Shown one piece after another: positions 1,332-18,664 of a DNA stretch of 29,846 bases; position 1 is the stretch's first letter, and each line of letters begins with the position of its first letter. Made by a program: the position numbers and the translations under genes. The stretch spans positions 1 through 29,846 of IMG/VR virus record IMGVR_UViG_3300025110_000080; one strand, given 5' to 3'. The DNA comes from a virus. Under the pieces are notes generated by a model that did no database searches, was not told where the DNA came from, and saw nothing but the letters and a program-made list of their open reading frames with translations.

Positions 1332-1652
1332 TTGGAGCCAAGTCGTACCTTAAATTATAAAATGAAGTCTATGTTTAAAATCTGCCCTAAAATAGAAAAA
1401 CAGTGTGCATTCTGCGGAGAATCCAATTGGAATCCTATGACCGATAGCAAATCTGACAATATATATTTATTTTGTGGAGCGACATCAGGTTATGAAACTA
1501 GGGTTGAACCTTTGCCAGAGTGTTGGTTAAAAATGACACCGGCTATGCGAACAAAATATAGGAAGCAAAAGAAAGCAGAGTACGAAGCGTTGAACCCAAA
1601 GACATTAAATTATGAAACAGTTAGAAATAAAAAATATAATAAAAGCTATTAA
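1332..1652 (+). CDS. Small cysteine-containing protein, possible zinc binding, unknown function
   Basis: The start is uncertain. A TTG at 1332 has AGAGG six bases upstream, while the ATG at 1362 (96 residues) has no visible ribosome binding site. The protein carries a CAFCG knuckle (C25, C28), with further cysteines at 48 (LFCGATSG) and 64 (LPECW). This could be a single zinc site. The C-terminus is rich in lysine, tyrosine and asparagine. No family is recognised. It is the last + strand gene before the strands converge, and its TAA overlaps the stop of the 1200-residue gene on the other strand. Confidence 0.6.
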   Translation: MEPSRTLNYKMKSMFKICPKIEKQCAFCGESNWNPMTDSKSDNIYLFCGATSGYETRVEPLPECWLKMTPAMRTKYRKQKKAEYEALNPKTLNYETVRNKKYNKSY

Positions 1653-4600
1653 GGACTCATCTCTTTCTTATATATAGTCATTAATCTTTTGTTAATAGCA
1701 TCAACATCAATATCATCATAGGTCAATGGCCTTTCTGGAAAAGAATTGTTCCATTCCCTTACCAACCGATTAGCCATTCTATCATTACCTTCTATTAGAT
1801 AATCTAATATCCTAGGTCTAATTTTTGTTAATCTATATTTAACGTAATTTTTTCTTTGGCCTTCTGTTTCAAGTCTGCTTAATAATCTACGACCAACACT
1901 ACCAAAGACAGGCGCTACATTTCTTGCCGCTCTCTGTCCCGTAACCCACGTTGGGCCAAATGTTCCTGTATCAGCAACAAGTCGTTGAAGTGCTGAGTAC
2001 GCTTTGCTTGCATCTTGAATCAGTACAGGCTTTGCCGCAAACTCTAAAGCTCTCCATTTACTCTCGGATGCTATAATATCAGAAACAATACCAAAACCTC
2101 CAACAGCTGCCATTGAATCAATAAAGTCATTTAACCCGTATTCCTCACCTTCAATAGAATGCTTATAACTTTCATCATAAATATCTTTACCAGCAAATAA
2201 ATCACTCAAGCCATTTCTGGCCCATTGAACAAAAGTTCCACCAGCCATACCGGCTGCACCAAGTCTTAATAAAAACACTGGGTTCTTATTATCGTACACT
2301 TCTTTTTTCATTTCCCCATATAACCATTCTGCCTGCCTGTATCCAAAACGCTTAAATAAAACAAAGGGTTGAAACCTTGGGTCATTAAAGAAAGCAGGTT
2401 CTCTAAATACATTCTTTTGTAGTTGGGTATCCCTTGAGAACTCAAGCATAGCCCTAGACATATTCTTTTGTGTAAGTTTTTTATTAATATTCTCGACACC
2501 CATACCTTTTAAATTAGATATCGCCCACTCTTTTCGTGCTTTTATATTCGTAGTCTTTGCTATTCTTTGCCATCTCAAAGCAGCTTCGTAACCAGTATAA
2601 GCAGCAACAAACTTGTTTATTTTATTAATTCCTTGGAAGCCAGAATACTTTGTTATCTTGTCAGCAACACGTGCAGTAAGACTAGCATTTGCAGGATTAA
2701 AACCAGCTATAATGGCGTGAAGCTCAAGAGAACCAGCACCAGAGTATTCTTTAATAGCTTCTCGATATTTTTTATCAGTAGCCATTTTATAAGTTCCTTT
2801 AAAGAAAGGAGAATACCCTGCTTTTAAAATACTAGAAATAAGAGACTGTGTTAAGTTTGGAACAGTAGCAAAACCTAAACCTATTTTGGTAGCTACTTGG
2901 AAATTAACTAAATCATTTAAAACACTTTTAGATTTAGGGCTCCAGTTGTAACGCCTATCAACTTCAATTGTTCCCGTAAAAGAATTAATAGCCTTAGATA
3001 AAAGTTCTGCTTCATTCTTGCCACCCATATCACGAATAGCTTTTATCTTGTTAAAAAGTTTTGCACCATCAGCGCCAGCTGTTTCAGCAAACGCAACAGA
3101 CTTTCCGACTTCTCCTATGTAGTTTGTAAGCAAAGTTCCTGCATCTCTTTCATAAAACATATTGTCTAGCTTGTCGCTAGTTCTAGCTTTTGTTAAAGAT
3201 TTACTTGTTGGGGCAATTTCGCTAAATAACTCTCCTCTAATTCTTTCAAAAGACTCTGACAAAGAAACATCATTAACTCTTCTTTTGGTAGACTGAGCAA
3301 TTTTTTCTCTCATTCGCTCTATTTGCTGAATTGTTTCAGGTCTTAATACTTTTGTGTTTAAAGCTTGCTTTAAAGTGGCTTCAAAGTTTTCTCTGTTTTT
3401 AAGCTCAAGGCTCATGGTTCTTGGGTCAATCTTTAAATACTTTTCAAAGTCTTCTCTTAAAATTCTTTTTAGTTTTGCATTGTATTTTCTAGGTAAATAA
3501 TTATCTACTACTGGAGCTAACTCTATCCCCGATTTTTCTGCTACTTTCCAAGCCGTTTCTAAAACTTTTCTATATTCAAGCGTTCTTTGAACCGAATCAG
3601 GATTCTTTGACTCAAGGTCGTTTGAAAGCTCTTCTCTGTCTTTTTTAGATTTAATTTTTTTAAGTCCCTTTATTACTCTGCCGTCTTTTGTAGTATAGGT
3701 TGCTTGATTTAAAGCATACCAAAGTTGTTGAGTTAACCCGTCTTGTCTAGCAGACATTGTAAAATAATCAGCTTTTACTTCATTAGATAATGGTTGGAAT
3801 CTGGGGTCATTAACTCGACGGTCAAGAGGTTTGAGGGCTGTTAAAGAATCGTAGACAGCAGGGGGCAACCATTTCTTAAAAAAAGATTCTCCTGACGCTT
3901 CGTAAATAGGAATACCCTCTTTTTTATAACCATCAATTTCTTTTTGAATTGCTTTTTTTGTTTCTAGCTGTCTTAATAATTTTTCTCTAGCTTCATAGTT
4001 ATTAGAAAGCTCATCGTAGTTAGTGCTTTTTTTACCTTTTTTTGTTTTACTTGGTTTTTCCGCAAAAGTTTCACCTGCTACACTATTAATCATACGCCTA
4101 TATTCAGCGTCACTTATTTTCAATTCCCCTTTAAGAGCAAAAGATTTATTTTGAATAAGCTTGTCTACGTCTTGACCTTTTTTAGTTGTCTTTAATCTAT
4201 AGCCACCATCTTGTGTTGATTTAAAAAAATCTTTCTTAGGTACAGCAAAAGACTTTCCATCTGTTCCGTCTTTGTTAACTTCTCTAACTTTTAATATAGT
4301 TTCTTTTCTTTCGGTGTTAACCCAGTCAGTTAGTATCTTAACATTCTTAGTTCCGTCTGTGTATATTTCTTGTTGTCGTATTGCCGCTTGCTCTCTGCTC
4401 TGCTTGGCCTCTGCATTCTCTCTGTAAATTGCTTCAAGTTCTTTACCCTCTAAAGCTCTACCTTTAGGTTTAAAAACTTTATTGCTAACTGCTTTGCGTA
4501 ATGTAAGTCCGCCAATGACACCAGCGGCGTGTATGTAAGAATCAAGGCTAGGCAATTCACCTTCTAATAATGGAGAAGCTGTACCAAACAAAGCTGTCTC

Positions 4601-5251
4601 TGCACCTTTTTCAACAAGGGTAGCTTTTCGTGAACTTAATCCTCTTTGTAAAGCAGCGCTTTTAGATACTACACCTAACGCACCTGTTCCCGCACCTAGG
4701 CCAGCCCCTATAGCTGCATCCTTTAATGTTGTTGTAAAGCTAATATCTTCATCAGTTACCTGTTGTCCTAGTGCTGATTGCAAACCAGAATAAAAACCTA
4801 ATCCAGTTGCTCCAGTAACCGCCTTTGCCCTAGCTTGATTTAACACTTTAGTAGACGCCTTAGCAACTTGCGCCTCTGCTACTTCTTTTTTTAATCCAGA
4901 TTTAACCAGCTGAGAAACAGCTTTTTGAGAAGAAGCTTTTAAAGCCAAGCCTCCTACCCCTCCCCCTAAAACCATAGCACCAAAGTCTGTAGGTGTTAAG
5001 AAGCTAACAACAGTTGCTCCAATATCTTCTATCATACTTGGGTTGTAGTTTTGGTCTAATTTAAATACAGGGTCACCTTTGACTACTTGTTGCGCTAACC
5101 CCTCTATGCTTTGATTATAGCCTTGCTTTACCCAGTTAGGAAGCCAACCTCCCGGAATAAAACCATATAAAGACTCTTCTTTGTTAGATTGACCAGAGCC
5201 AAGCGATTGTAAAAAATCTATCTCTTCTTTTGTTATATTATATTGAGGCAT
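1649..5251 (-). CDS. Large internal virion (DNA ejection) protein candidate
   Basis: The protein has 1200 residues and is the longest gene in the window and the last of the - strand series. Residues ~75-110 and ~175-200 are Gly/Ala-rich hydrophobic stretches (for example GAMVLGGGVGGLALKA), as in proteins that enter the cell envelope during ejection. The centre (~400-900) is highly charged and helical, with LPRKYN and GFATVPNLTQS. Another Gly/Ala hydrophobic stretch lies near the C-terminus (RLGAAGMAGGTFVQW). I see no lytic transglycosylase motif. Position at the end of the structural genes, length and composition fit the large ejectosome protein of short-tailed phages (compare T7 gp16 by role, not by sequence). 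A tape measure is less likely because no tail-tube genes accompany it. There is no clear ribosome binding site before the ATG; the upstream stop is 21 bases away. Confidence 0.65.
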   Translation of the reverse strand: MPQYNITKEEIDFLQSLGSGQSNKEESLYGFIPGGWLPNWVKQGYNQSIEGLAQQVVKGDPVFKLDQNYNPSMIEDIGATVVSFLTPTDFGAMVLGGGVGGLALKASSQKAVSQLVKSGLKKEVAEAQVAKASTKVLNQARAKAVTGATGLGFYSGLQSALGQQVTDEDISFTTTLKDAAIGAGLGAGTGALGVVSKSAALQRGLSSRKATLVEKGAETALFGTASPLLEGELPSLDSYIHAAGVIGGLTLRKAVSNKVFKPKGRALEGKELEAIYRENAEAKQSREQAAIRQQEIYTDGTKNVKILTDWVNTERKETILKVREVNKDGTDGKSFAVPKKDFFKSTQDGGYRLKTTKKGQDVDKLIQNKSFALKGELKISDAEYRRMINSVAGETFAEKPSKTKKGKKSTNYDELSNNYEAREKLLRQLETKKAIQKEIDGYKKEGIPIYEASGESFFKKWLPPAVYDSLTALKPLDRRVNDPRFQPLSNEVKADYFTMSARQDGLTQQLWYALNQATYTTKDGRVIKGLKKIKSKKDREELSNDLESKNPDSVQRTLEYRKVLETAWKVAEKSGIELAPVVDNYLPRKYNAKLKRILREDFEKYLKIDPRTMSLELKNRENFEATLKQALNTKVLRPETIQQIERMREKIAQSTKRRVNDVSLSESFERIRGELFSEIAPTSKSLTKARTSDKLDNMFYERDAGTLLTNYIGEVGKSVAFAETAGADGAKLFNKIKAIRDMGGKNEAELLSKAINSFTGTIEVDRRYNWSPKSKSVLNDLVNFQVATKIGLGFATVPNLTQSLISSILKAGYSPFFKGTYKMATDKKYREAIKEYSGAGSLELHAIIAGFNPANASLTARVADKITKYSGFQGINKINKFVAAYTGYEAALRWQRIAKTTNIKARKEWAISNLKGMGVENINKKLTQKNMSRAMLEFSRDTQLQKNVFREPAFFNDPRFQPFVLFKRFGYRQAEWLYGEMKKEVYDNKNPVFLLRLGAAGMAGGTFVQWARNGLSDLFAGKDIYDESYKHSIEGEEYGLNDFIDSMAAVGGFGIVSDIIASESKWRALEFAAKPVLIQDASKAYSALQRLVADTGTFGPTWVTGQRAARNVAPVFGSVGRRLLSRLETEGQRKNYVKYRLTKIRPRILDYLIEGNDRMANRLVREWNNSFPERPLTYDDIDVDAINKRLMTIYKKEMSP

Positions 5252-5272
5252 TTAAAAACGTTAACAAAAACA

Positions 5273-6376
5273 CTAAAGTGCAGAAAGTTTAGTAGCCGTA
5301 GGAGAAGTATAAAAAGGCTTTGTCTCTTTTCTTGCTTGTTTTAAACGACTTCTTTGTTTCTTAATTTCATCTTTTGTTGCTTTAATAGCTGCATTAATTT
5401 GTTCTAATTCTTTAGCTTGAACTTCCGTTAAGTTTCTTAGCTTACCTGTCCTGTCTAATATGTTTTTTCTGTTTTCTAACGTAGATAAAGAACTTTGTAG
5501 TGTTCCAATGTTAATATCAGATGAAACTTCTACTTGGGTTGCTATTTGCTTGACACTTTCTTCTGCTTGTGGGCCTAAGTCTAATGAATCTTCTGGTTTA
5601 AACAATATATCAGAGACCAATCGTTCAGCTTGCTCGTCTATTGACAAGTCCTGAGTATCTACTTGAGCGGTGGTACCACCTGCACCAACTACACCTGTTT
5701 CTCCAAATTTTTCTTTTTGAAATCTACCTAGCATTAAATTCATTTGTTCAAAAATTCCTTGAACATCAGCATTAGGCATTTTAAGCATATTTTCATATGT
5801 TTCGTATTGAAGTTTATAGTATGGATTTGTCAACATATCTCGATAGGGGTTTTTAATTTCTTTAAAAGCACTGTCTCGTCTAGTCACTACCTGTCCGTAA
5901 GCAGCGGAGGTAGGGTCTAAACCTTCAAGAGCCTTGTTGCCTTCTGACACTATCTCTTGAGGAGAGCTTACTGCATAGAAACTTTTTAATGAAGTTTTCT
6001 GGTCTTCTTCTTTATCGCCCTGAACGCGCATTTGGTCAGCCATATCATACATTCCGTATTTACTATATATAGCTTGTCTTTGATAAGGCTCTGTAACAGA
6101 GCGTAATAAAGTATTCATTTCTGATTTTTTATCTTGCTCGGCTTTATATGCTTGCGCTTCAATTCTATTTTGTTGATTAATTCTTGCTTGCTGCCTTCTA
6201 AACTCTCTATCTTTTTCTTGTCCTTCTGCAATTAAATCTAACCTTCTGTTTTCCGCTTTTATTCGAGCATCATCTCTTTTAGAAGCGCGCCATTGTTGCA
6301 ACATCTGAGGTGTTTCTAAAACTTTTTGATTTAAAAATTCAAGAAGTATGTCTCCACGTTTATATCTTTCAGCCAT
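5273..6376 (-). CDS. Internal virion protein candidate, coiled coil
   Basis: The protein has 367 residues. Residues ~30-90 form a long, very charged helix (RxxDxRIKAENRRLDLIAEG, then repeated RQQ/NQQN), which looks like a coiled coil. The middle is moderately conserved-looking (SKYGMYDMADQMRVQGD; NPYRDMLTNPYYKLQYETYE). The C-terminus (~300-350) is again a coiled coil (QAKELEQINAAIKATKDEI) with a basic tail. There is no membrane segment or enzyme motif. Its place immediately upstream of the 1200-residue protein fits a partner internal core protein (the role of T7 gp14/gp15). That role is inferred from order and composition. Confidence 0.6.
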   Translation of the reverse strand: MAERYKRGDILLEFLNQKVLETPQMLQQWRASKRDDARIKAENRRLDLIAEGQEKDREFRRQQARINQQNRIEAQAYKAEQDKKSEMNTLLRSVTEPYQRQAIYSKYGMYDMADQMRVQGDKEEDQKTSLKSFYAVSSPQEIVSEGNKALEGLDPTSAAYGQVVTRRDSAFKEIKNPYRDMLTNPYYKLQYETYENMLKMPNADVQGIFEQMNLMLGRFQKEKFGETGVVGAGGTTAQVDTQDLSIDEQAERLVSDILFKPEDSLDLGPQAEESVKQIATQVEVSSDINIGTLQSSLSTLENRKNILDRTGKLRNLTEVQAKELEQINAAIKATKDEIKKQRSRLKQARKETKPFYTSPTATKLSAL

Positions 6377-6394
6377 TATCTCTTACCTTTAGTT

Positions 6395-6892
6395 TTAATT
6401 AGTGTATAACAATATCGGTTCATTATTATAAACTCTTGCTCTTTGTTTACTTGTTGGATATACTTTTTCTTCATAAAATAAGTTAGGATAAACTTTTTTT
6501 AATTTTTCTTTTTTGTTTAAAAGTACACCATTTTTAATTATTTTATCTCCATACATAAGCTTGCCTACTAGCGTTTTATTTACTTCACCAGTACAATAAT
6601 TAAGAGGCTTTCTATTCCAGTGTTGAATATCTACAAACATATTGTACTTATCTAAACCAATCTTAATACCTTCTTTCATTAACTGTACTAACTCAGCATA
6701 ATTAGGTTGTCCATTTAACACTATATCTACATCCATTGTACTCCATCCTTCAAGAAAGCCACTAGCAAGCCATACTTTATATTTTTCAACGTTAGGTAGC
6801 TTAATAAAATCATCAAACCAACTAAAGAACTTACTTAAAGTAGGGGCTTTAGGCGCTTGTGAAAATTTCATATTGCCGTATTGATAGCTCAT
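6395..6892 (-). CDS. Nucleotidyltransferase-fold protein
   Basis: This 165-residue protein has a segment reading KVWLASGFLEGWSTMDVDIV at residues 39-58. It resembles the minimal nucleotidyltransferase signature, in which a strand ending in G/S is followed about ten residues later by D-x-D (here D54 and D56). A third acidic residue sits on a later strand (MFVDIQHW, D88). The helix between them (YAELVQLMKEGIKIGLDKYN) is where that fold expects one. The canonical GS is SG here. If active it would transfer a nucleotide to an RNA, protein or small molecule. The ATG overlaps the stop of the upstream structural gene (TAATG). It lies among tail and ejection genes, so delivery with the particle is possible but unproven. 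Confidence 0.5.
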   Translation of the reverse strand: MSYQYGNMKFSQAPKAPTLSKFFSWFDDFIKLPNVEKYKVWLASGFLEGWSTMDVDIVLNGQPNYAELVQLMKEGIKIGLDKYNMFVDIQHWNRKPLNYCTGEVNKTLVGKLMYGDKIIKNGVLLNKKEKLKKVYPNLFYEEKVYPTSKQRARVYNNEPILLYTN

Positions 6893-8619
6893 TAACTTCG
6901 AGTACCTCCAGAGCCACCTTGCATATCTTGAAAAATTTGTCTTTCTGCTTCTTCTTGTGTATAGCCTTGGTCAACTAAAGCTTGTATTTCTGCGTCTTGT
7001 TGTGTTGTTCCGCCTTCTCCTTGGCCAAAAGTAAATTGACCCTTCTCTTCAATGTCTCTAATACTGCTAAGTAAGTCTGACTGAAATCCTTCAACAACAC
7101 CTCTGCGTTTACGAGCCTGTTCTCCTAATAATCCACTATATTGCTGACCAAACGCTTGTGAGCCTGCACCAGCACCCGCAAATCCACCACCCATGTTTCT
7201 TTGTGCATTGTACATTTGTAATAATGCTTGTCTACCGCCTGATTGAATATCGCCAAACTTTTGTTGATATCCCATACTAAATTGCGGTAAATCTTTTAAA
7301 TATTTTTCTAATCTTGGGTCATTAGCAATATAATCCATTCCCATTTGTCCTAGTGCTGCCATTGGGTCTATAGCTGTTCCATACCCACCATAAGCTCCCG
7401 GAGCAGAGCCACCTGTACCAGTCCCAGTCCCTGTACCCATCCCTGTACCAGTTCCTGTACCAGTTCCCGTTACTGCACTAGTTCCTGTTCCCGGCGTAAA
7501 ACCCATATCAGTACCAACACCAAGGTCAACTCCAGAGCCATCCCCTAAAACAGAACCGCCTAAAAAATCACCCATATTAAAACCACTAGCAGATAGTTGA
7601 CTTAAAGCCTCAGTATCAATACCTCCCATTGTTTTTGGAGTTTGTGTAGACATAGGAGACTTAGCTGTACCAGCATAATCAGTAACAGTGCTAGTTTGTT
7701 GAGCCGCTTTTCTTGCTTCTTCTGTAGACATATTTGCTAACGCTTCTGCTGACATATTTGTATGAACTGGCCCTCCATGTGGATATTTAGGTATCATTCC
7801 ACCTTGTTTATTCATAATAAGTCCGGGATATCTACTTCCAGACTGTAACGGGCCTTGCGTTCTAGTGCCATAATTTATTAAACTTTCATAAGAAGTTGGA
7901 GAATAATCGTAAGTTGGCATAAAACTAGAAATAGAAGCTTGCGGAGAAACAGTATTCATATCTTGAAAAGCCCAATCAGGTATGTCACTTGACAGCACAT
8001 TAGAAGACATGGCATTTCTTCTCCTAAAATCTTGTCTAATATTATCAGAGCTTGGGAATTGAAAAGGTTCGTCAACGTCTAGTATTTCTTCTGGTGTTCC
8101 AGCATCTGGCAGTGAACCTGCATCGCCAAACTTAGCATCTAAATAATTTAAACCTCCACGTGTAATAAAATCATCCCAACCAGTATCTAGCCCTTGAATA
8201 AAAGCTCGTTCTTTTCTACTCTTACTAAAATCATCTGAAGCGCCTTGCAAGTCTTCTTTTGTTTGTAATGCATATTTTCCACCCTCAAATTCGGTTGGTG
8301 TATATCCTGAAACTTTTTCACCGAAAAAACGACCTAACCCAGAGCCTAATCCTTTTCCAATAGACTTTCCAACAAACTGACCTACTCCGGGAATAGGAAT
8401 AAAACTACCTGCAAGTTCTCCAGCTTTACTAAAAAGATTACCTAAAAGATTTGCTTTTCCCATCTTTTCTGCATCTCTATCTTTTTTTCTTTGTAAATCA
8501 GCTAGTTCAGCTTGATACTCTCTCCCTCTTCTTGAGCGAGCTATTTGTCCACCTAACTGGTAATTGTTTGACTTGCCTACCATACCGCCACCATATAATT
8601 CCATTAAACTATTTGCCAT
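6892..8619 (-). CDS. Glycine-rich virion-associated protein with GGM motifs
   Basis: The protein has 575 residues. The N-terminus is MANSLMELYGGGMVGKSNNY followed by QLGG, then a charged helix (~27-55) and a Gly/Ala-rich, weakly hydrophobic segment (~65-100, SFIPIPGVGQFVGKSIGKGL). Residues 273-283 read GGMIPKYPHGG, matching motifs in the large protein at 24612-26456. Residues ~378-403 are a GT dipeptide repeat. The C-terminal half includes LPQFSMGYQQKFGDIQSGGR, which looks conserved, then an acidic/Gln tail. No enzyme motif is visible. Position between the nozzle-like gene and the ejection genes suggests a structural or internal virion component. GGAA precedes the ATG. Confidence 0.6.
   Translation of the reverse strand: MANSLMELYGGGMVGKSNNYQLGGQIARSRRGREYQAELADLQRKKDRDAEKMGKANLLGNLFSKAGELAGSFIPIPGVGQFVGKSIGKGLGSGLGRFFGEKVSGYTPTEFEGGKYALQTKEDLQGASDDFSKSRKERAFIQGLDTGWDDFITRGGLNYLDAKFGDAGSLPDAGTPEEILDVDEPFQFPSSDNIRQDFRRRNAMSSNVLSSDIPDWAFQDMNTVSPQASISSFMPTYDYSPTSYESLINYGTRTQGPLQSGSRYPGLIMNKQGGMIPKYPHGGPVHTNMSAEALANMSTEEARKAAQQTSTVTDYAGTAKSPMSTQTPKTMGGIDTEALSQLSASGFNMGDFLGGSVLGDGSGVDLGVGTDMGFTPGTGTSAVTGTGTGTGTGMGTGTGTGTGGSAPGAYGGYGTAIDPMAALGQMGMDYIANDPRLEKYLKDLPQFSMGYQQKFGDIQSGGRQALLQMYNAQRNMGGGFAGAGAGSQAFGQQYSGLLGEQARKRRGVVEGFQSDLLSSIRDIEEKGQFTFGQGEGGTTQQDAEIQALVDQGYTQEEAERQIFQDMQGGSGGTRS
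7411..7488 (-). repeat. GT-dipeptide coding repeat
   Basis: On the + strand this is a run of imperfect units close to CCTGTACCAGTT, encoding (Gly-Thr)n with one Met interruption. It forms a flexible linker in the glycine-rich virion protein. Slipped-strand length variation between relatives would be expected. Confidence 0.7.
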
Positions 8620-8620
8620 T

Positions 8621-8815
8621 TTATATTCCTGTAAATTCCATGTACCAAAGTTTGCCGAACTCTTTACGGTACACCCTTAATGTTTGACCACCTGCCAATA
8701 CGACACGCTCATCTCCATCGCTCATCTCATTAATAGACGGTTGTTGTGTGGACGCAGAAACCTGTGTCCTTTTAGTTTGTTCAAGTCTTCTAAGTCTTAC
8801 ATCTACTTCGCTCAT
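8621..8815 (-). CDS. Small protein beside the tail nozzle-like gene
   Basis: This 64-residue protein has an N-terminal helix (MSEVDVRLRRLEQTKRTQ), a Ser/Gln-rich linker, then a compact beta-rich end (ERVVLAGGQTLRVYRKEFGK, ending LWYMEFTGI). No named family is recognised. Its ATG overlaps the stop of the 854-residue gene (ATGA) and its own stop lies two bases before the next start. Such tight coupling suggests it works with the tail protein, perhaps as an accessory subunit. Confidence 0.6.
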   Translation of the reverse strand: MSEVDVRLRRLEQTKRTQVSASTQQPSINEMSDGDERVVLAGGQTLRVYRKEFGKLWYMEFTGI

Positions 8816-11376
8816 GTGACTCTCTTATTAATTGTTCTGTATTCTATTGAAATATCGTTAATATCAATTCTAGCACCAGCTGTAGGATTAGAAATTTTAA
8901 TTTGCATACTTTGGCACTCTACTGGAGAAGAAGGATATGCATACAACACATCCCAAGCACTACTTGTATCTAAAAAATTACCTGTAAAATTAGAAAAAGA
9001 TGTGCTTCCATTTATTGCATAAGAAATAGGTGTTGTTTGCGCTGAACTAGACTGATAAGTAATGCGCAATCCATATACTTTTTTAATTCTTGCAGGGTCT
9101 CCAAAATCTATATCTTTAGTTTTTACTATAAATTTACCTGTAGAAACTGTAGAACCTTCTTCAGCACTATCAATACCTCTTTGAGAAGCACTAGAAGAAC
9201 TAGTTAGGGTGCTCATGCTATTAAAAATAACATCTCCAGAATTATCATCAATCAGATTGCTAAAGAAATAATCATCATCATCTTTAACTGCTTTTGCCCA
9301 TCCTCTTGCATCAAAATTATATACAAAAAAATCACCTATTCCAGCAGTGGTTAAAGATAAATCATTTTGACCGACATATAAGCTGTTGGTCTCTTCGTGA
9401 AAAGCAACCAGTGGGTGACTGTTGTCAGTAGCATTAACTGTCCAATCTTTTTTAGGTATCTTTCCTTTTATTAAATTTTTAATACCTGTGCCATCAAAAA
9501 AGAAAGCACCAAATCTATTTGCCCAAAAAATACCATCTTGACTGTAAAAAACACCACCTGTAGAAGCTACTCCTTTGTTTCTTTCTGTTGACTCTAAAAA
9601 CCAGTTAGCAGGTGAAGGTGAGCCAATATTAATAACATATAAAGTTTTTCTTTTAAACGCAAACAGTCTATCGCCATAAGTAGCTAGAGCAGTGTATTCA
9701 TCAGAATCACCTTTAACTACATCTATAAAAAAACTACGAGGAAACGTTTCGTATTTATTAGGAGGCGTATACATAATGCGGTCACGCATTCTTTTCATAA
9801 TGTTTCCAAAAGTAAGTGTACCATTTGTTACACTACCACCAGTAGTAGAAGCAGATAGCTCAAATGTAGTCGCATTAGTTATAGAAGATACAAAAGCTCC
9901 GCTTGGAATACCCGTACCGCTAACACTCATACCAATTCGTATACTATCTGTACTATCCATTGTTATAGTAGGGTCATTATTATAATCACAAGTAGCGTCA
10001 GTAAATGGGTCTGCATTTTCATCTACCATTTGAACATTGCAAACAAATACACGCCGGTTTGCTATAATGGAATCTTTATAAGATTCACCGAACTCTGATA
10101 AACTAATAGAAAACTCGTCAGGATTAAACCCGTTTAAAATAGTATAGGTCTCAAGGTTTTCAGATGTCAATATTAGTGTGTCTACACCAGCCTCTGTAGC
10201 ATCACTACCTACGGCCCATGCTTTATACTCGTCATCCATTCCAGTCCTACAGCCGTCCTTTAAGTCCATGTCTATCATTAAAGACCAAGGTTCATTTGTA
10301 CCGTTTGGACGTATATAAACACGCGCACCTGTAATCCTCTCATCGTATGCTGGCGAAGCGTTTACATCTATATCTACATAATCACCAGAAGCTGTCGTAA
10401 ATGTATTGTTAGCGGTAGGTATGTATAATTTAGATTCTTGATTACCTCTATAAATAAACGAACCTGCTATTTGATATGTTTTTGCACCAAACTGTCCAAT
10501 AGTATCGCTATCTGTAGCCGGATGTGTAACGTTTAAATGAAATCCCGTGCCTGCACTTGGATACGAAGACCCATGAATTAACAAAGCAGTAGGCGGTGAT
10601 AAGTCACAATCATTTGCATACCAATTATCATAAACGTCTTTCGCTACACCCGCATCTTCAAAATGAATTTGTTTAATATAACCGTATTGTTTTCTTTTCA
10701 TCCCCGAATTAAATGCACCATCTGCTATCCTAAGAGTATCGTCAGAAGCAAAAAATATTCCCTTTGCTAAAACAGTAAAGACAGTAGCCCCTGCTTCAGA
10801 AGCTTCAGTTGTAAAAGTTGGTGCCCCAAAACTAAGGTCTTTTGAACCAACTATCTTTTTTACCCGAACCACTCTATTATTAGCCGCGACGTCTGTACAT
10901 CCGGTAATTCTTATTACATCAGCTTCTTTAAATTTTTCTTCAAAATTTTCAGAATCATTCGCGTCAACTATAGTCGTTGATTGAAATTGAAGCTCATTAG
11001 CTGCAAAAGAAAAAGATGAAGGTGTCCCCATGTCTACAACAACAGCCTCAGCCGTGCTACTTCCGTTTAATGAGACTTCTCCTGTTATAGAATTAAGGGC
11101 AGCTACCCAAGTTTCTCCAATATCTTTTGCCGCAGCAGAACCTTCTCTATCTGTTTCAAAAGGAAAAATTCCACCACCGGGATATACATATATATCTGGA
11201 ATACTGCTAGTGTCTCCATCATCTCCTCTTACTAAATTAGCTGTCATTAGCCTTCCTGCTTTTTTTAAATTAGCATTATCTGCTTGCGCCAACTCATTCA
11301 TAGCAATATCTCTTGGGTCTTGAATTAAATTTAATCCACCGCGAAAATCATTTAACTTTAAAAACTGTTTAGGCAT
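8812..11376 (-). CDS. Tail nozzle-like structural protein
   Basis: The protein has 854 residues. It starts with LNDFRGGLNLIQDPRDIAMN and ELAQADNANLKKAGRL, a beginning I associate with large tail proteins of short-tailed marine phages: 'F+GGLN, D.RDI..NEL..A.N'. It continues as an all-beta, Gly/Ser/Asp-rich sequence. Around residues 460-510 there is a small Ig-like/beta-sandwich unit (SGTGIPSGAFVSSITNATTF). It is followed by a propeller-like stretch (YGDRLFAFKRKTLYVINIG; GVFYSQDGIFWANRFGAFFF). No signal peptide or catalytic motif is visible. The likely role is a tail nozzle/tubular protein (the place of T7 gp12). The endolysin gene ends just before it, and AAGGGA provides the ribosome binding site. 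Confidence 0.6.
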   Translation of the reverse strand: MPKQFLKLNDFRGGLNLIQDPRDIAMNELAQADNANLKKAGRLMTANLVRGDDGDTSSIPDIYVYPGGGIFPFETDREGSAAAKDIGETWVAALNSITGEVSLNGSSTAEAVVVDMGTPSSFSFAANELQFQSTTIVDANDSENFEEKFKEADVIRITGCTDVAANNRVVRVKKIVGSKDLSFGAPTFTTEASEAGATVFTVLAKGIFFASDDTLRIADGAFNSGMKRKQYGYIKQIHFEDAGVAKDVYDNWYANDCDLSPPTALLIHGSSYPSAGTGFHLNVTHPATDSDTIGQFGAKTYQIAGSFIYRGNQESKLYIPTANNTFTTASGDYVDIDVNASPAYDERITGARVYIRPNGTNEPWSLMIDMDLKDGCRTGMDDEYKAWAVGSDATEAGVDTLILTSENLETYTILNGFNPDEFSISLSEFGESYKDSIIANRRVFVCNVQMVDENADPFTDATCDYNNDPTITMDSTDSIRIGMSVSGTGIPSGAFVSSITNATTFELSASTTGGSVTNGTLTFGNIMKRMRDRIMYTPPNKYETFPRSFFIDVVKGDSDEYTALATYGDRLFAFKRKTLYVINIGSPSPANWFLESTERNKGVASTGGVFYSQDGIFWANRFGAFFFDGTGIKNLIKGKIPKKDWTVNATDNSHPLVAFHEETNSLYVGQNDLSLTTAGIGDFFVYNFDARGWAKAVKDDDDYFFSNLIDDNSGDVIFNSMSTLTSSSSASQRGIDSAEEGSTVSTGKFIVKTKDIDFGDPARIKKVYGLRITYQSSSAQTTPISYAINGSTSFSNFTGNFLDTSSAWDVLYAYPSSPVECQSMQIKISNPTAGARIDINDISIEYRTINKRVT

Positions 11377-11769
11377 TTATCCCTTTATCTCAAAGTGTAC
11401 CAAGTCGTCAAACTTATTATCTTTGGTATGTGTGTCTTGATTCCAGTCTCCGCCCCAACGAATGTTCATACCCATTTCTTTCGCCACTCCGAGAACAAAG
11501 CCACCAAAGTAATGGAACCTATCACGGTCACTCCAATCAATAGGATAAGGAGCCACGTCAACAGCAATAGAGGGATTTTGATTATGTTTACCATTCGGAT
11601 ACTTAACTTTACTCTTGCCGTCAGCAAAGGCTTTATTTTGGCGCTCCTCTCCTCTGTGCCCCTCGATAATGGAACAATCGAAATGCTTAACTACCTCGTA
11701 AAACAGTTCTTGTAATTTTTGGTCGCACGTCTTAAGTCTGCTAATGGAGCGCTTTCCAAAGCGAGGCAT
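11377..11769 (-). CDS. Endolysin, M15-type (T5-endolysin-like) peptidase
   Basis: The 130-residue, single-domain protein would cut peptide cross-links of peptidoglycan to release progeny. The zinc-binding pattern of the M15 family is visible: H62 in GKHNQNPSIAVD with D71, then H125 in DDLVHFEIKG. D122, three residues before H125, stands where the T5 endolysin has its catalytic aspartate. The fold signature 'W..RDRFHYFGGFVLGVAKEM' sits between them. There is no signal peptide, so it needs a holin or another membrane lesion to reach the wall. Its ATG overlaps the stop of the 51-residue gene upstream (TAATG), in a run of small membrane-protein genes that supports the lysis role. Confidence 0.88.
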   Translation of the reverse strand: MPRFGKRSISRLKTCDQKLQELFYEVVKHFDCSIIEGHRGEERQNKAFADGKSKVKYPNGKHNQNPSIAVDVAPYPIDWSDRDRFHYFGGFVLGVAKEMGMNIRWGGDWNQDTHTKDNKFDDLVHFEIKG

Positions 11770-11924
11770 TATTTAAAACTCTCTAACAAAAGTTTTACTT
11801 CTTCCCACACTTCGTCATCTTTTTTAGACTTAGTAGCACCTACTGCATAGTCACCTATCATCATTAACAGGCCAACCATTCCTAGTTTTTTAACCAGTCG
11901 TTGTATTATTCTTTTTAACATCAT
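11769..11924 (-). CDS. Small membrane-associated protein in the lysis cluster
   Basis: The protein has 51 residues and starts at MMLKRIIQRLVKKLGMVGLL, with AAGGA just upstream. It has a basic amphipathic N-terminal helix, a short hydrophobic stretch (GMVGLLMMIGDYAVGA) and an acidic C-terminus (DDEVWEEVKLLLESFK). The stop overlaps the endolysin ATG (TAATG). It could be a small holin, a pinholin-like protein or a holin regulator. The hydrophobic part is too short to be confident of a full membrane span. The gene fills an otherwise empty 160-base interval. Confidence 0.6.
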   Translation of the reverse strand: MMLKRIIQRLVKKLGMVGLLMMIGDYAVGATKSKKDDEVWEEVKLLLESFK

Positions 11925-11933
11925 TCTTCCTTG

Positions 11934-12125
11934 TTATTTATTATTTGAAGCCTTACCAAAATTAGCACCTAAAAAATTAACAACATCTAAAATCATTTGT
12001 ACAATTCTATCGTCACTTTTGTTAGGTGTCATAGATGCTATTACAGCAAATCCACCAACAATACTTGCAGCTGCTGATAAGATAGCTACATAGTTATTTG
12101 AAATTACACTTACAATATCGCTCAT
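11934..12125 (-). CDS. Holin candidate with one N-terminal membrane segment
   Basis: This 63-residue protein has a clear membrane segment at about 11-32 (NYVAILSAAASIVGGFAVIA). A charged turn (TPNKSDDR) and a C-terminal amphipathic helix (IVQMILDVVNFLGANFGKAS) follow. This layout recurs in small proteins beside endolysins of aquatic phages and is the best holin candidate here. A strong AAGGAG stands before the ATG. Topology and pore formation are inferred only from hydropathy and position. Confidence 0.6.
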   Translation of the reverse strand: MSDIVSVISNNYVAILSAAASIVGGFAVIASMTPNKSDDRIVQMILDVVNFLGANFGKASNNK

Positions 12126-12126
12126 T

Positions 12127-12384
12127 CTAACTCCTTATGTTAAAAAGCCAGCCAATAAAACCAGAAAAGATTACGGCAATTGCAGAACCCACCGCTTTAA
12201 TTGCTGATGTCTGCTGTTCTAAAACACGTACCCTTCCATTCTGTTCTTTAACCAAGCCTTTGATTTCATCTACAGATTCTTTAATGTGGGCCAACTCACT
12301 GTTCTGTTTAGCTCCCATTACTGTTAGTTCTTCTAGTCGAGAATCTACGCCAACTCTCCAATGTTCTACTTCTACTTTGTTCAT
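12127..12384 (-). CDS. XhlA-like coiled-coil protein with C-terminal membrane anchor
   Basis: This 85-residue protein is a heptad-rich helix from about 10 to 60 (RLEELTVMGAKQNSELAHIK; VRVLEQQTSAI). One membrane segment follows near the C-terminus (63-81, VGSAIAVIFSGFIGWLF). This is the layout of haemolysin XhlA-type phage proteins, which associate with the membrane and assist holins. Its ATG overlaps the stop of the upstream coiled-coil gene (ATGA). A holin accessory role is inferred. Confidence 0.55.
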   Translation of the reverse strand: MNKVEVEHWRVGVDSRLEELTVMGAKQNSELAHIKESVDEIKGLVKEQNGRVRVLEQQTSAIKAVGSAIAVIFSGFIGWLFNIRS

Positions 12385-12697: not shown

Positions 12698-12919
12698 TTA
12701 TTTTTTTGAATCTTCTTTATCTATGGAAGTTTTTAACGCATCTACAAATGCTTGCCTTCCAAAGCGTAATTGAATCAAATTAAATTCACTTGAATTTAGC
12801 TTTTTGTCAAGGTCAGCTATGTGATTTATCATTGATTTTTGTTCGTCGTTCATTGATTCAATATCATATTCTTTATCGTCTATCTTAAGTATCGGCTTTT
12901 CTTTTTCTGTTTTAGCCAT
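12698..12919 (-). CDS. Small soluble helical protein (DUF6447-like)
   Basis: The real start is the ATG at 12919, which has AAGGAG five to six bases upstream; a longer frame from 12964 would overlap the previous gene and has no such signal. The 73-residue protein reads ILKIDDKEYDIESMNDEQKS, then MINHIADLDKKLNSSEFNLI, then QLRFGRQAFVDALK. A short beta hairpin followed by two helices fits the family I recall as DUF6447, common in marine phages; the name is from memory. It is soluble and lies between the secreted thioredoxin-like gene and the membrane coiled-coil gene. Function unknown. Confidence 0.7.
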   Translation of the reverse strand: MAKTEKEKPILKIDDKEYDIESMNDEQKSMINHIADLDKKLNSSEFNLIQLRFGRQAFVDALKTSIDKEDSKK

Positions 12920-12942: not shown

Positions 12943-13329
12943 TTATTTTTGTCTTGAATACCAATCAATAGATTTTTTAACATCATCTGTGGTCAATTCA
13001 AGCTTTCCATCAAAATTTGCTTTCCAAGCTTTTACTTTTTTACCATCTTTAAATAAAACTACACTTGGAAAATTTCTTAATCTTAATTTTCTAACAGTTT
13101 GACTTACATTCTTTGCAGGTAATATCATCATCTGTGTTCCTAAATAAGCACTATCACCAGTTACGATAAACTTGCCTTGATAAAAATTTTGTTTACTATC
13201 TTCTGACCATTCAGCGGTATACCGAACTAACCACATTCCTTTATAAATAGCGCCATAAAAATTTGCATCATTCACGACTTGTTGTGCTGGTTTACTAAAT
13301 ACCAACGATAATAATAGTAGCCACCTCAT
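12943..13329 (-). CDS. Secreted thioredoxin-fold protein lacking both active-site cysteines
   Basis: The protein has 128 residues. The N-terminus MRWLLLLSLVFSKPAQQ looks like a short signal peptide. The body follows the thioredoxin order. WLVRYTAEWSEDSKQ (33-47) matches the strand and active-site loop usually read as AEWCGPCK, with W41-S42-E43-D44-S45-K46. LRLRNFPSVVLFKDGKKVKA (82-101) matches the cis-proline strand (P88) and the turn after it. The C-terminal helix follows. There is no cysteine anywhere in the protein, so thiol-disulphide chemistry is excluded. The two serines use different codons (TCA and AGT). A binding, chaperone or structural role outside the cytoplasm is likely. The gene is coupled to its upstream neighbour by ATGA and sits in the lysis/membrane cluster. 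Confidence 0.65.
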   Translation of the reverse strand: MRWLLLLSLVFSKPAQQVVNDANFYGAIYKGMWLVRYTAEWSEDSKQNFYQGKFIVTGDSAYLGTQMMILPAKNVSQTVRKLRLRNFPSVVLFKDGKKVKAWKANFDGKLELTTDDVKKSIDWYSRQK

Positions 13330-13679
13330 TGTACTGCAATCCTCAAGTCAATAACTTGTTGTTTTAGTTTTTCAATTTCTTCTTGTAATTCTTCAACCAT
13401 TTCAAAAATCTCGTCTTGGTTTTCACCTAAGTCTCCAACCTGTTGTTTATATTGTTCGTATGATGGACTCCAATTATAATCGCTAATGCCTTTACTTGGA
13501 TATTCTTGAGAGAATAAAGATACAGGAACAGGTAATTCTTTAGCTTCTTGTATGTCTGCCTGAAGGGCAAACCACATTCCGATGAGGCTACTAAGGCCCA
13601 TTCCTCCAGCAATCATTGTTTGAAGACTAAGGGTAAACTTTGACCCTAATATTTTTTCTTCGCTTATTTCTTTACTCAC
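13326..13679 (-). CDS. Membrane protein with N-terminal anchor and C-terminal coiled coil
   Basis: The protein has 117 residues and starts at GTG, overlapping the upstream stop (GTGA). One membrane segment lies at about 17-41 and ends in GMWFALQADIQEAKELP, a sequence I recall from many aquatic phages. A Pro/Ser/Tyr-rich linker (50-72) follows, then a strong coiled coil (85-115, EMVEELQEEIEKLKQQVIDL). It has no cysteines. It could be an inner-membrane spanin or a scaffold for the neighbouring thioredoxin-like protein. It is probably paired functionally with the next gene upstream, which has the same layout. Confidence 0.6.
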   Translation of the reverse strand: MSKEISEEKILGSKFTLSLQTMIAGGMGLSSLIGMWFALQADIQEAKELPVPVSLFSQEYPSKGISDYNWSPSYEQYKQQVGDLGENQDEIFEMVEELQEEIEKLKQQVIDLRIAVQ

Positions 13680-13945
13680 TTTTTTAAACCTATTTTTTGT
13701 AATAAACTTTTTTGTTCTTTTACTGTAGCTTCTAATTCTTCAATTTGTTCCTGTTCCATTCCTTCTACCGATGCAGTTAAAACAGTAACTTTACTTTGCA
13801 AATCATTCAACGTTGAATCTATACTTGCAAATTTCATTTGTATTTGATAATATGATGCAATTAATAAGCTAATACCTACCATCGCTTTTATTAAAAAAGC
13901 TATTGATATATGTATTTGACTATCTGCACTAATACCCTTCTGCAT
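13676..13945 (-). CDS. Membrane-anchored coiled-coil protein, inner-spanin-like
   Basis: The protein has 89 residues. One membrane segment lies at about 13-33 (ISIAFLIKAMVGISLLIASY), followed by an uninterrupted coiled coil (38-85, FASIDSTLNDLQSKVTVLTA; QIEELEATVKEQKSLLQ). The size and layout fit an inner-membrane spanin subunit. The gene upstream, which overlaps it by 17 bases, carries a possible lipobox, and overlapping i-/o-spanin genes are a familiar arrangement. The similarity is architectural only. Confidence 0.55.
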   Translation of the reverse strand: MQKGISADSQIHISIAFLIKAMVGISLLIASYYQIQMKFASIDSTLNDLQSKVTVLTASVEGMEQEQIEELEATVKEQKSLLQKIGLKK

Positions 13946-14153
13946 TTAAAGAATCCAATTCCATTTCTATTCTCATTAATAATGAGTCAACTTCAAATAT
14001 TTGCTGATTAATCTCTTCAAAATCTTTATTGTATCCAGCTATATAAATATTATCATCACAAGACGACACAATCATAAACACATAAGCTATAGCTACCATA
14101 CCAGTCATCTTAAGTAGTGTATTTAAAAAAGTTTCTATTTTATCTTTTTTCAT
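13929..14153 (-). CDS. Small lipoprotein-like or single-span membrane protein
   Basis: The protein has 74 residues. A charged start (MKKDKIETFLNTLLK) is followed by a hydrophobic stretch (16-31) that ends in MIVSSC, a plausible lipobox with C32, then CDDN. If processed, the mature protein has about 43 residues and is acidic and helical (DFEEINQQIFEVDSLLMRIE). The aspartate at +2 would favour inner-membrane retention under enterobacterial rules. It may instead stay as a single-span protein. It overlaps the next gene by 17 bases, an arrangement seen in some spanin pairs. Function is inferred. Confidence 0.5.
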   Translation of the reverse strand: MKKDKIETFLNTLLKMTGMVAIAYVFMIVSSCDDNIYIAGYNKDFEEINQQIFEVDSLLMRIEMELDSLNAEGY

Positions 14154-18084: not shown

Positions 18085-18392
18085 TAGTCTATGTCCATAG
18101 TTGGTATTTCGTTATCTACTAATCTAGGTATCTTAACATAAGTACCGTCTGCATCCATAAAGTCTACTCTAAATACTTTATTAATTTCTACGCCTGCATT
18201 GGTATCGCTTAATGTATACCACTGCTGGTCTGCTACCATATTTGTTTTTGCGTATTCTACTTTTGTAGCATACTTTCCAAGTTCAACAATAGCTTCATTT
18301 ATAAGGTTCATAATATAAGCTTCGGGTGCATTTGGAAAAGCTTGCCTTACCCTAGATATAATTTTTTTTACAGTTAGGCTATGTACCGCCAT
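18084..18392 (-). CDS. Head-tail adaptor-like protein
   Basis: This 102-residue protein opens with SLTVKKIISRVRQAFPNAPE, then AYIMNLINEAIVELGKYATK. Two N-terminal helices of this type (including 'INEAxxEL') are usual in phage adaptor/connector proteins, and are followed by a beta part (WYTLSDTNAGVEINKVFRVD). It is coupled by TAATG to the repeat protein upstream and to the next structural gene downstream. The role as an adaptor ring subunit is inferred from helical pattern and order. Confidence 0.5.
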   Translation of the reverse strand: MAVHSLTVKKIISRVRQAFPNAPEAYIMNLINEAIVELGKYATKVEYAKTNMVADQQWYTLSDTNAGVEINKVFRVDFMDADGTYVKIPRLVDNEIPTMDID

Positions 18393-18664
18393 TAATCAGA
18401 ATCCTTTCCTAGCAATCCAATTTGTTGCCATGTTCTAGTTTCATCTTCCCAGTTATTAACTGTCATATCAGGCCAACTGCCGGGTAGTTTCCAAGTTGAT
18501 GTAGTTGGTAAAGATACCCCAGTAAAAGATGGAGAGGTATTTAAACCTACCCCAGTCCAAGTCGGGGATGTGTTTAAGGTTACTCCAGTCCAACTAGGAG
18601 ATGTATTTAAAGTTACTAGTGTAAAAGAAGGTGAGGTATTTAATGTTACTAAAGTCTTAGCCAT
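18392..18664 (-). CDS. Small protein of 11-residue tandem repeats
   Basis: The protein has 90 residues. Residues 5-59 are five consecutive 11-residue units of consensus [L/G]V[T/G]LNTSP[S/T][W/F]T, the last one decayed (GVSLPTTSTWK). The rest is Trp-rich (WKLPGSWPDMTVNNWEDETR). It is probably a beta-strand stack, with aromatic residues at a fixed place in each unit. The ATG overlaps the stop of the upstream gene (TAATG) with AAGGGG before it. No family is recognised. The position among connector genes suggests a virion component. Confidence 0.65.
   Translation of the reverse strand: MAKTLVTLNTSPSFTLVTLNTSPSWTGVTLNTSPTWTGVGLNTSPSFTGVSLPTTSTWKLPGSWPDMTVNNWEDETRTWQQIGLLGKDSD
18488..18652 (-). 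repeat. Five 33-base in-frame coding repeats
   Basis: On the + strand the units share GGNGANGTNTTTAAN-like cores (for example GGAGATGTATTTAAAGTTAC). Four are close copies and the leftmost is diverged. They encode the 11-residue units of the repeat protein. Confidence 0.8.

Follow-up and report, generated by a model that had tools for sequence, protein, structure and literature searches.

Thioredoxin folds that have lost their redox chemistry are known from the animal endoplasmic reticulum (ER), where PDILT has Ser-Lys-Gln-Ser at its site and ERp29 lacks the CXXC box (PMC3500226). Among phages, T7 employs a thioredoxin as a binding part, not for redox work: the T7 DNA polymerase uses E. coli thioredoxin as its processivity factor (PMC3556154). 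In phage T4, the holin T is a single-pass protein with a periplasmic domain, and the antiholin RI is a periplasmic protein with a cleavable signal peptide (PMC11413866). Finally, the MshEN motif characterizes the N-terminal domain of MshE and PilB (PMC5013675).

The DNA analyzed here (the window) is a 29,846-base virus record of IMG/VR that encodes a large terminase (phrog_38), a portal (phrog_156) and a major head protein (phrog_1328). We found that the gene at 12943-13329 of this window encodes a cysteine-free protein predicted to adopt the thioredoxin fold and is one half of a conserved, newly recognized gene pair. The features of the locus are as follows.

11377-11769, minus strand: endolysin, peptidase M15-like (phrog_465, E 3e-35; PF13539, E 0.013)
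11934-12125, minus strand: small one-helix membrane protein, holin candidate (phrog_9685 of unknown function, E 2e-7; holin family phrog_526 only at E 0.08)
12127-12384, minus strand: protein with a coiled coil and a C-terminal transmembrane helix
12381-12695, minus strand: protein with an N-terminal transmembrane helix and a coiled coil
12698-12919, minus strand: DUF6447 protein (PF20045, E 4e-8, over the cut-off)
12943-13329, minus strand: cysteine-free protein of 128 aa with a predicted thioredoxin fold and a putative N-terminal signal peptide
13063-13089, minus strand: KLRLRNFPS with the cis-proline P88, the most conserved stretch and a substrate-groove loop of thioredoxins, with little or no variation between members of subfamilies A and B (see below)
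13195-13206, minus strand: S42-E-D-S45 at the place of the thioredoxin C-x-x-C (codons TCA for S42 and AGT for S45)
13294-13329, minus strand: signal-peptide-like N-terminus MRWLLLLSLVFS, with cleavage placed after about residue 12 by eye under the -3/-1 rule
13326-13679, minus strand: membrane partner, with a brief N-terminal stretch in the cytosol, a single transmembrane helix at about residues 19-41 and a periplasmic coiled coil, as judged by hydropathy
13676-13945, minus strand: protein with an N-terminal transmembrane helix and a coiled coil, i-spanin-like in shape (weak match to the Rz-like spanin family phrog_739, E 0.09)
13929-14153, minus strand: lipobox-like VSSC-DDN protein, o-spanin-like in shape as judged from sequence, overlapping 13676-13945

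With the endolysin at one end and small membrane proteins in between, the label of a lysis cluster that had been given to this region from the sequence is a fair one. The overlapping genes at 13676-14153 appear to be better spanin candidates of the window phage than the thioredoxin pair. Elsewhere in the window, large late proteins (1200, 367, 575 and 854 aa) encoded at 1649-11376 have no PHROG match, and a short protein at 18392-18664 is built of repeats such as TLNTSPSWTGV.

The product of 12943-13329 (MRWLLLLSLVFSKPAQQ...TAEWSEDSKQ...RLRNFPSVVLFKDGKK...) contains no cysteine in its 128 residues. At the start of helix 2, where a redox-active thioredoxin has C-x-x-C or one nucleophilic cysteine, it has S-x-x-S within AEWSEDSK; further on, NFPSVVLF contains P88, which aligns with the cis-proline that precedes strand beta-4 of thioredoxins. 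The gene boundaries, the signal-like N-terminus, the kept P88 and the unrelated codons of the two serines, all described in the sequence-only reading, were confirmed, the strand being minus. Compared with thioredoxins of the PF00085 family, such as the S. aureus Trx C32S mutant (2o89), the phage protein shares the common fold, the Trp before the site, the cis-proline and the groove loops, but lacks C-x-x-C, so that no disulfide chemistry is expected, and adds a signal peptide and, behind the site at about residues 47-62, a further loop. It resembles PDILT and ERp29 as a secretory-pathway thioredoxin fold in which the redox cysteines are replaced and which is kept for binding; those, however, are multi-domain animal ER proteins with no gene partner and with no sequence link to the phage protein beyond the fold. 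Whereas the thioredoxin of T7 is host-encoded, cytosolic and retains C-x-x-C, the protein described here is phage-encoded, cysteine-free and probably exported.

We collected 151 distinct relatives, which fall into subfamilies A (49; the subfamily of the window protein), B (22) and C (80). None of the 151 has C-x-x-C, and none has a cysteine at either site position, which rules out a chance loss in one phage. The most common site in subfamily A is S-x-x-N (26), followed by S-x-x-S (17), S-x-x-D (4) and one case each of S-x-x-G and A-x-x-N; the site varies in subfamily B and is N-x-x-N in 77/80 members of subfamily C. Thus, of the serine-for-cysteine site noted earlier, the loss of C-x-x-C holds generally, whereas the serines themselves are not conserved as a pair, and S-x-x-S as a fixed motif is ruled out.

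Conservation lies outside the site pair. Over subfamilies A and B, W41, KLR.RNFPS, L92-F93, G96, K98, W102-K103 and D107-G108 are invariant, and across all three subfamilies (83 sequences) P88 is the sole invariant residue besides Met1. The residues invariant over A and B are placed, by the alignments and by what is generally true of thioredoxins, at the three loops lining the substrate groove. The dN/dS values between subfamily A members are 0.07-0.22; hence the protein is under purifying selection, which argues against decay, and, the reading frame being the same in relatives, a frame error or pseudogene is ruled out. The C-terminal residue is Phe in 73/80 thioredoxins of subfamily C and 20/22 of subfamily B, possibly as a docking or sorting end; this Phe is absent from the window protein.

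Several comparisons point to the thioredoxin fold. As a single sequence, the window protein scores 19.6 bits (E 9e-4) against the Pfam family PF00085, for which the curated cut-off is 23.5 bits; a member of the sister subfamily (L267) exceeds this cut-off at 37.5 bits, the best score in subfamily C, where 30/32 members match the family at E <=0.1. When searched against PDB chains, the subfamily A profile matches a thioredoxin-domain protein (E 4e-6) and that of the sister subfamily C a thioredoxin (E 5.5e-9); the A and C profiles also match one another (hhalign probability 96, E 1.6e-9). AlphaFold2 with 83 diverse relatives gave a model with pLDDT 81.5 and pTM 0.75, poor at the loop of about residues 47-60; an earlier run with 29 close relatives (pLDDT 51) was set aside. 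Foldseek assigned the model to the thioredoxin fold with probability 1.00, the PDB matches listed being thioredoxins or thioredoxin-domain proteins, and VIA-align superposed 98 residues on 2o89 (Z 13.4). This agreement is more than chance and, as far as structure prediction goes, the protein has the thioredoxin fold that had been read from its sequence.

The N-termini follow the pattern of Sec export in a rule-based check for a basic n-region, a hydrophobic core and a signal peptidase I site. A basic residue lies within positions 2-8 in 150/151 relatives, a hydrophobic stretch is found in all 151 (9-residue Kyte-Doolittle maximum >=0.76, median 2.96), and a small residue followed by Gln occurs at the likely cleavage point in 91/151. 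By these signal-peptide rules, the protein is probably exported to the periplasm, in agreement with the proposal that a thioredoxin scaffold has been kept without its redox cysteines and exported.

The partner gene 13326-13679 lies directly upstream and overlaps the start of the thioredoxin gene by 4 nt (ATGA), an overlap present in 46/123 partner-thioredoxin pairs. In loci fetched with the thioredoxin, a partner homolog is directly upstream wherever the contig extends far enough; because such a set is biased by its query, a separate search was run with the partner alone. Of the distinct partner ORFs, 110 have 1.6 kb of downstream sequence; in 109 of these, a thioredoxin-like gene follows downstream, at most 50 nt away in 100 of the 110, with one or two genes inserted in the other nine. 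An apparent lone partner (L152, the same locus as L037) proved to be a 50-residue fragment, with an intact pair in the same locus. The suggestion that the protein acts with neighboring membrane coiled-coil proteins thus gains strong genomic support. At least 586 partner matches were found in one scan of IMG/VR.

Partners of subfamily B carry an extra N-terminal domain that matches the N-termini of PilB (E 7e-12) and MshE (E 6e-7) and is absent from the partners of subfamilies A and C, including that of the window. The fusion of this domain to a phage membrane coiled-coil protein is seen at L101:5287-5937, L105:5249-5908 and in other subfamily B partners. Their MshEN motif is only partly kept, with Asp in place of the Gly conserved in the first repeat, and, in contrast to MshE and PilB, they have no ATPase.

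At least three phage lineages have the pair, and its neighbors often include genes for endolysins, holins or outer-membrane proteins. Outside the window lineage, the pair stands beside Amidase_2 or M15 endolysins and holin-like genes with three transmembrane helices (GTA_holin); in L277, an M15 gene directly follows it. This locus, apparently a prophage of a Flavobacteriales-order genome, also encodes a 2220-residue protein upstream of the pair (5512-12174). By similarity to 13 query proteins, an endolysin or holin lies within 4 kb in 35 of the 84 loci with enough flank, a lower bound, and a barrel-like exported protein near the pair in 51/84; in subfamilies B and C, the barrel-like gene often immediately precedes that of the partner. 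Examples of the latter are L203:1938-2999 and L108:3147-4433, outer-membrane-barrel-like and without a Pfam match. A protein in another phage contig (L102:6907-7560) matches Popeye (POPDC1-3) and cyclic-nucleotide-binding proteins (E 2e-15).

The hosts are probably Bacteroidota. Beside the pair in L205, a gene (2-340) ends in the type IX secretion system (T9SS) sorting domain Por_Secre_tail (E 1e-15), which suggests a phage protein secreted by the host type IX system. In a Flavobacteriales-order genome (G181), the partner, thioredoxin and M15 protein adjoin a TonB-receptor-like gene in what looks like a prophage edge. Both of these observations come from subfamily C; for subfamily A, the pair is carried by a metagenome-assembled contig named Flavobacteriales (L117), which may be a binning error. 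Among cultured phages, tblastn with thioredoxins of all three subfamilies and with partners found nothing credible, matches to Streptococcus tape-measure proteins (E 0.08 or worse) being coiled-coil noise. No PHROG family was matched by either subfamily searched, and in the open-access literature we found no phage-encoded exported or catalytically dead, cysteine-free, partnered thioredoxin.

We propose, at about even confidence, that the window protein is a redox-dead exported binding protein that works in the periplasm, jointly with the membrane partner, at a late stage of infection. The evidence is computational: the predicted fold, the absence of C-x-x-C, the conservation of the groove, purifying selection and the pairing over three lineages; from these, we infer export, physical binding and a role in lysis. 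The secreted protein would bind another protein through the old substrate groove, that is, the Trp41 loop, the cis-Pro88 loop and the W102-K103...D107-G108 loop, and the bound target would most likely be the periplasmic stalk of the 13326-13679 membrane protein. Together, the two would form an inner-membrane/periplasm complex, encoded in the phage late region, that governs or assists a late-infection step at the membrane; the likeliest such step is host lysis, which the complex would control or carry out. A lysis role is proposed because, by hydropathy and signal rules, the two proteins are arranged like T4 T and RI: one crosses the membrane once with its N-terminus inside, and the other is a putative periplasmic binder with a signal peptide. 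The resemblance is one of topology, not of a demonstrated sequence or fold relation; RI has not been called a thioredoxin, and gene adjacency is the sole link between partner and thioredoxin. By this analogy, lysis control is the leading, if unproven, role for the pair; taken by itself, we hold the lysis role somewhat short of even. The lysis genes beside the pair, both in the window and elsewhere, favor it, whereas the recognition of an endolysin or holin in fewer than half of the loci speaks against it; furthermore, neither the holin nor the spanin role is vacant because other candidates for both sit in the same cassettes.

The pairing itself can be read in other ways. In a distance-matrix (mirror-tree) test of subfamily C, the thioredoxin co-diverged with the barrel-like neighbor at r 0.70 and less strongly, at r 0.50, with the partner, which is short and gives noisy distances; the test thus did not favor the partner and counts against binding to it. 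This result, together with the frequency of the barrel-like gene next to the pair, the Por_Secre_tail protein and the existence of redox-inactive PDI-family proteins such as PDILT and ERp29 (PMC3500226), would fit a periplasmic chaperone or assembly factor for exported phage proteins (barrel-like or T9SS-sorted), with the membrane partner as a tether. We consider this role, of the chaperoning kind raised in the sequence-only reading, unlikely, if plausible: the barrel-like gene did not turn up in the window, nor in five other subfamily A and C loci checked, where the pair persists. For a spanin-like complex that disrupts the outer membrane, with the partner as the inner-membrane spanin and the thioredoxin as the periplasmic connector, the N-in/C-out topology and periplasmic coiled coil of the partner do resemble i-spanins (PMC6139136). 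However, the thioredoxin, having no cysteine and hence no lipobox, is not an outer-membrane lipoprotein, and the window contains the better spanin-like pair, which makes this role very unlikely.

Superinfection exclusion or envelope remodeling, in which the complex keeps other phages out of the cell or blocks surface machinery of the host, for instance pili, is suggested by the relation of the subfamily B cytosolic domain to PilB and MshE and by type IV prepilin-like genes near the pair (L101:7228-7677, with N_methyl PF07963, tested in L101; L103:8119-9483). The location of the gene among late structural and lysis genes and the absence of that domain from subfamilies A and C make exclusion quite unlikely. 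The blocking of a host Dsb-type or thioredoxin redox partner by a decoy, raised in the sequence-only reading, is unsupported and, in our estimate, extremely unlikely: the substrate groove is kept, but no relative retains a site cysteine, no Dsb gene was seen nearby, and the constant neighbor is a membrane coiled coil. A broader conjecture, to which we assign little likelihood, is that marine phages of Bacteroidota widely share the pair as a previously undescribed envelope module: the redox-dead thioredoxin would sense or gate the membrane protein from the periplasmic side and, in one lineage, a PilB/MshE-type, possibly c-di-GMP-binding cytosolic domain would couple lysis or exclusion to a host second messenger.

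Redox-dead thioredoxin folds, already known in animal ER proteins, are here a regular component of the genomes of marine phages. The probably exported, cysteine-free thioredoxin and its partner, with hundreds of partner matches in IMG/VR, are absent from the cultured phages and PHROGs searched. The N-x-x-N site that prevails in subfamily C, together with near-absolute pairing, makes for a small, testable two-protein system, and the pair sits in the late region of what are probably Bacteroidota phages, where lysis is poorly described.
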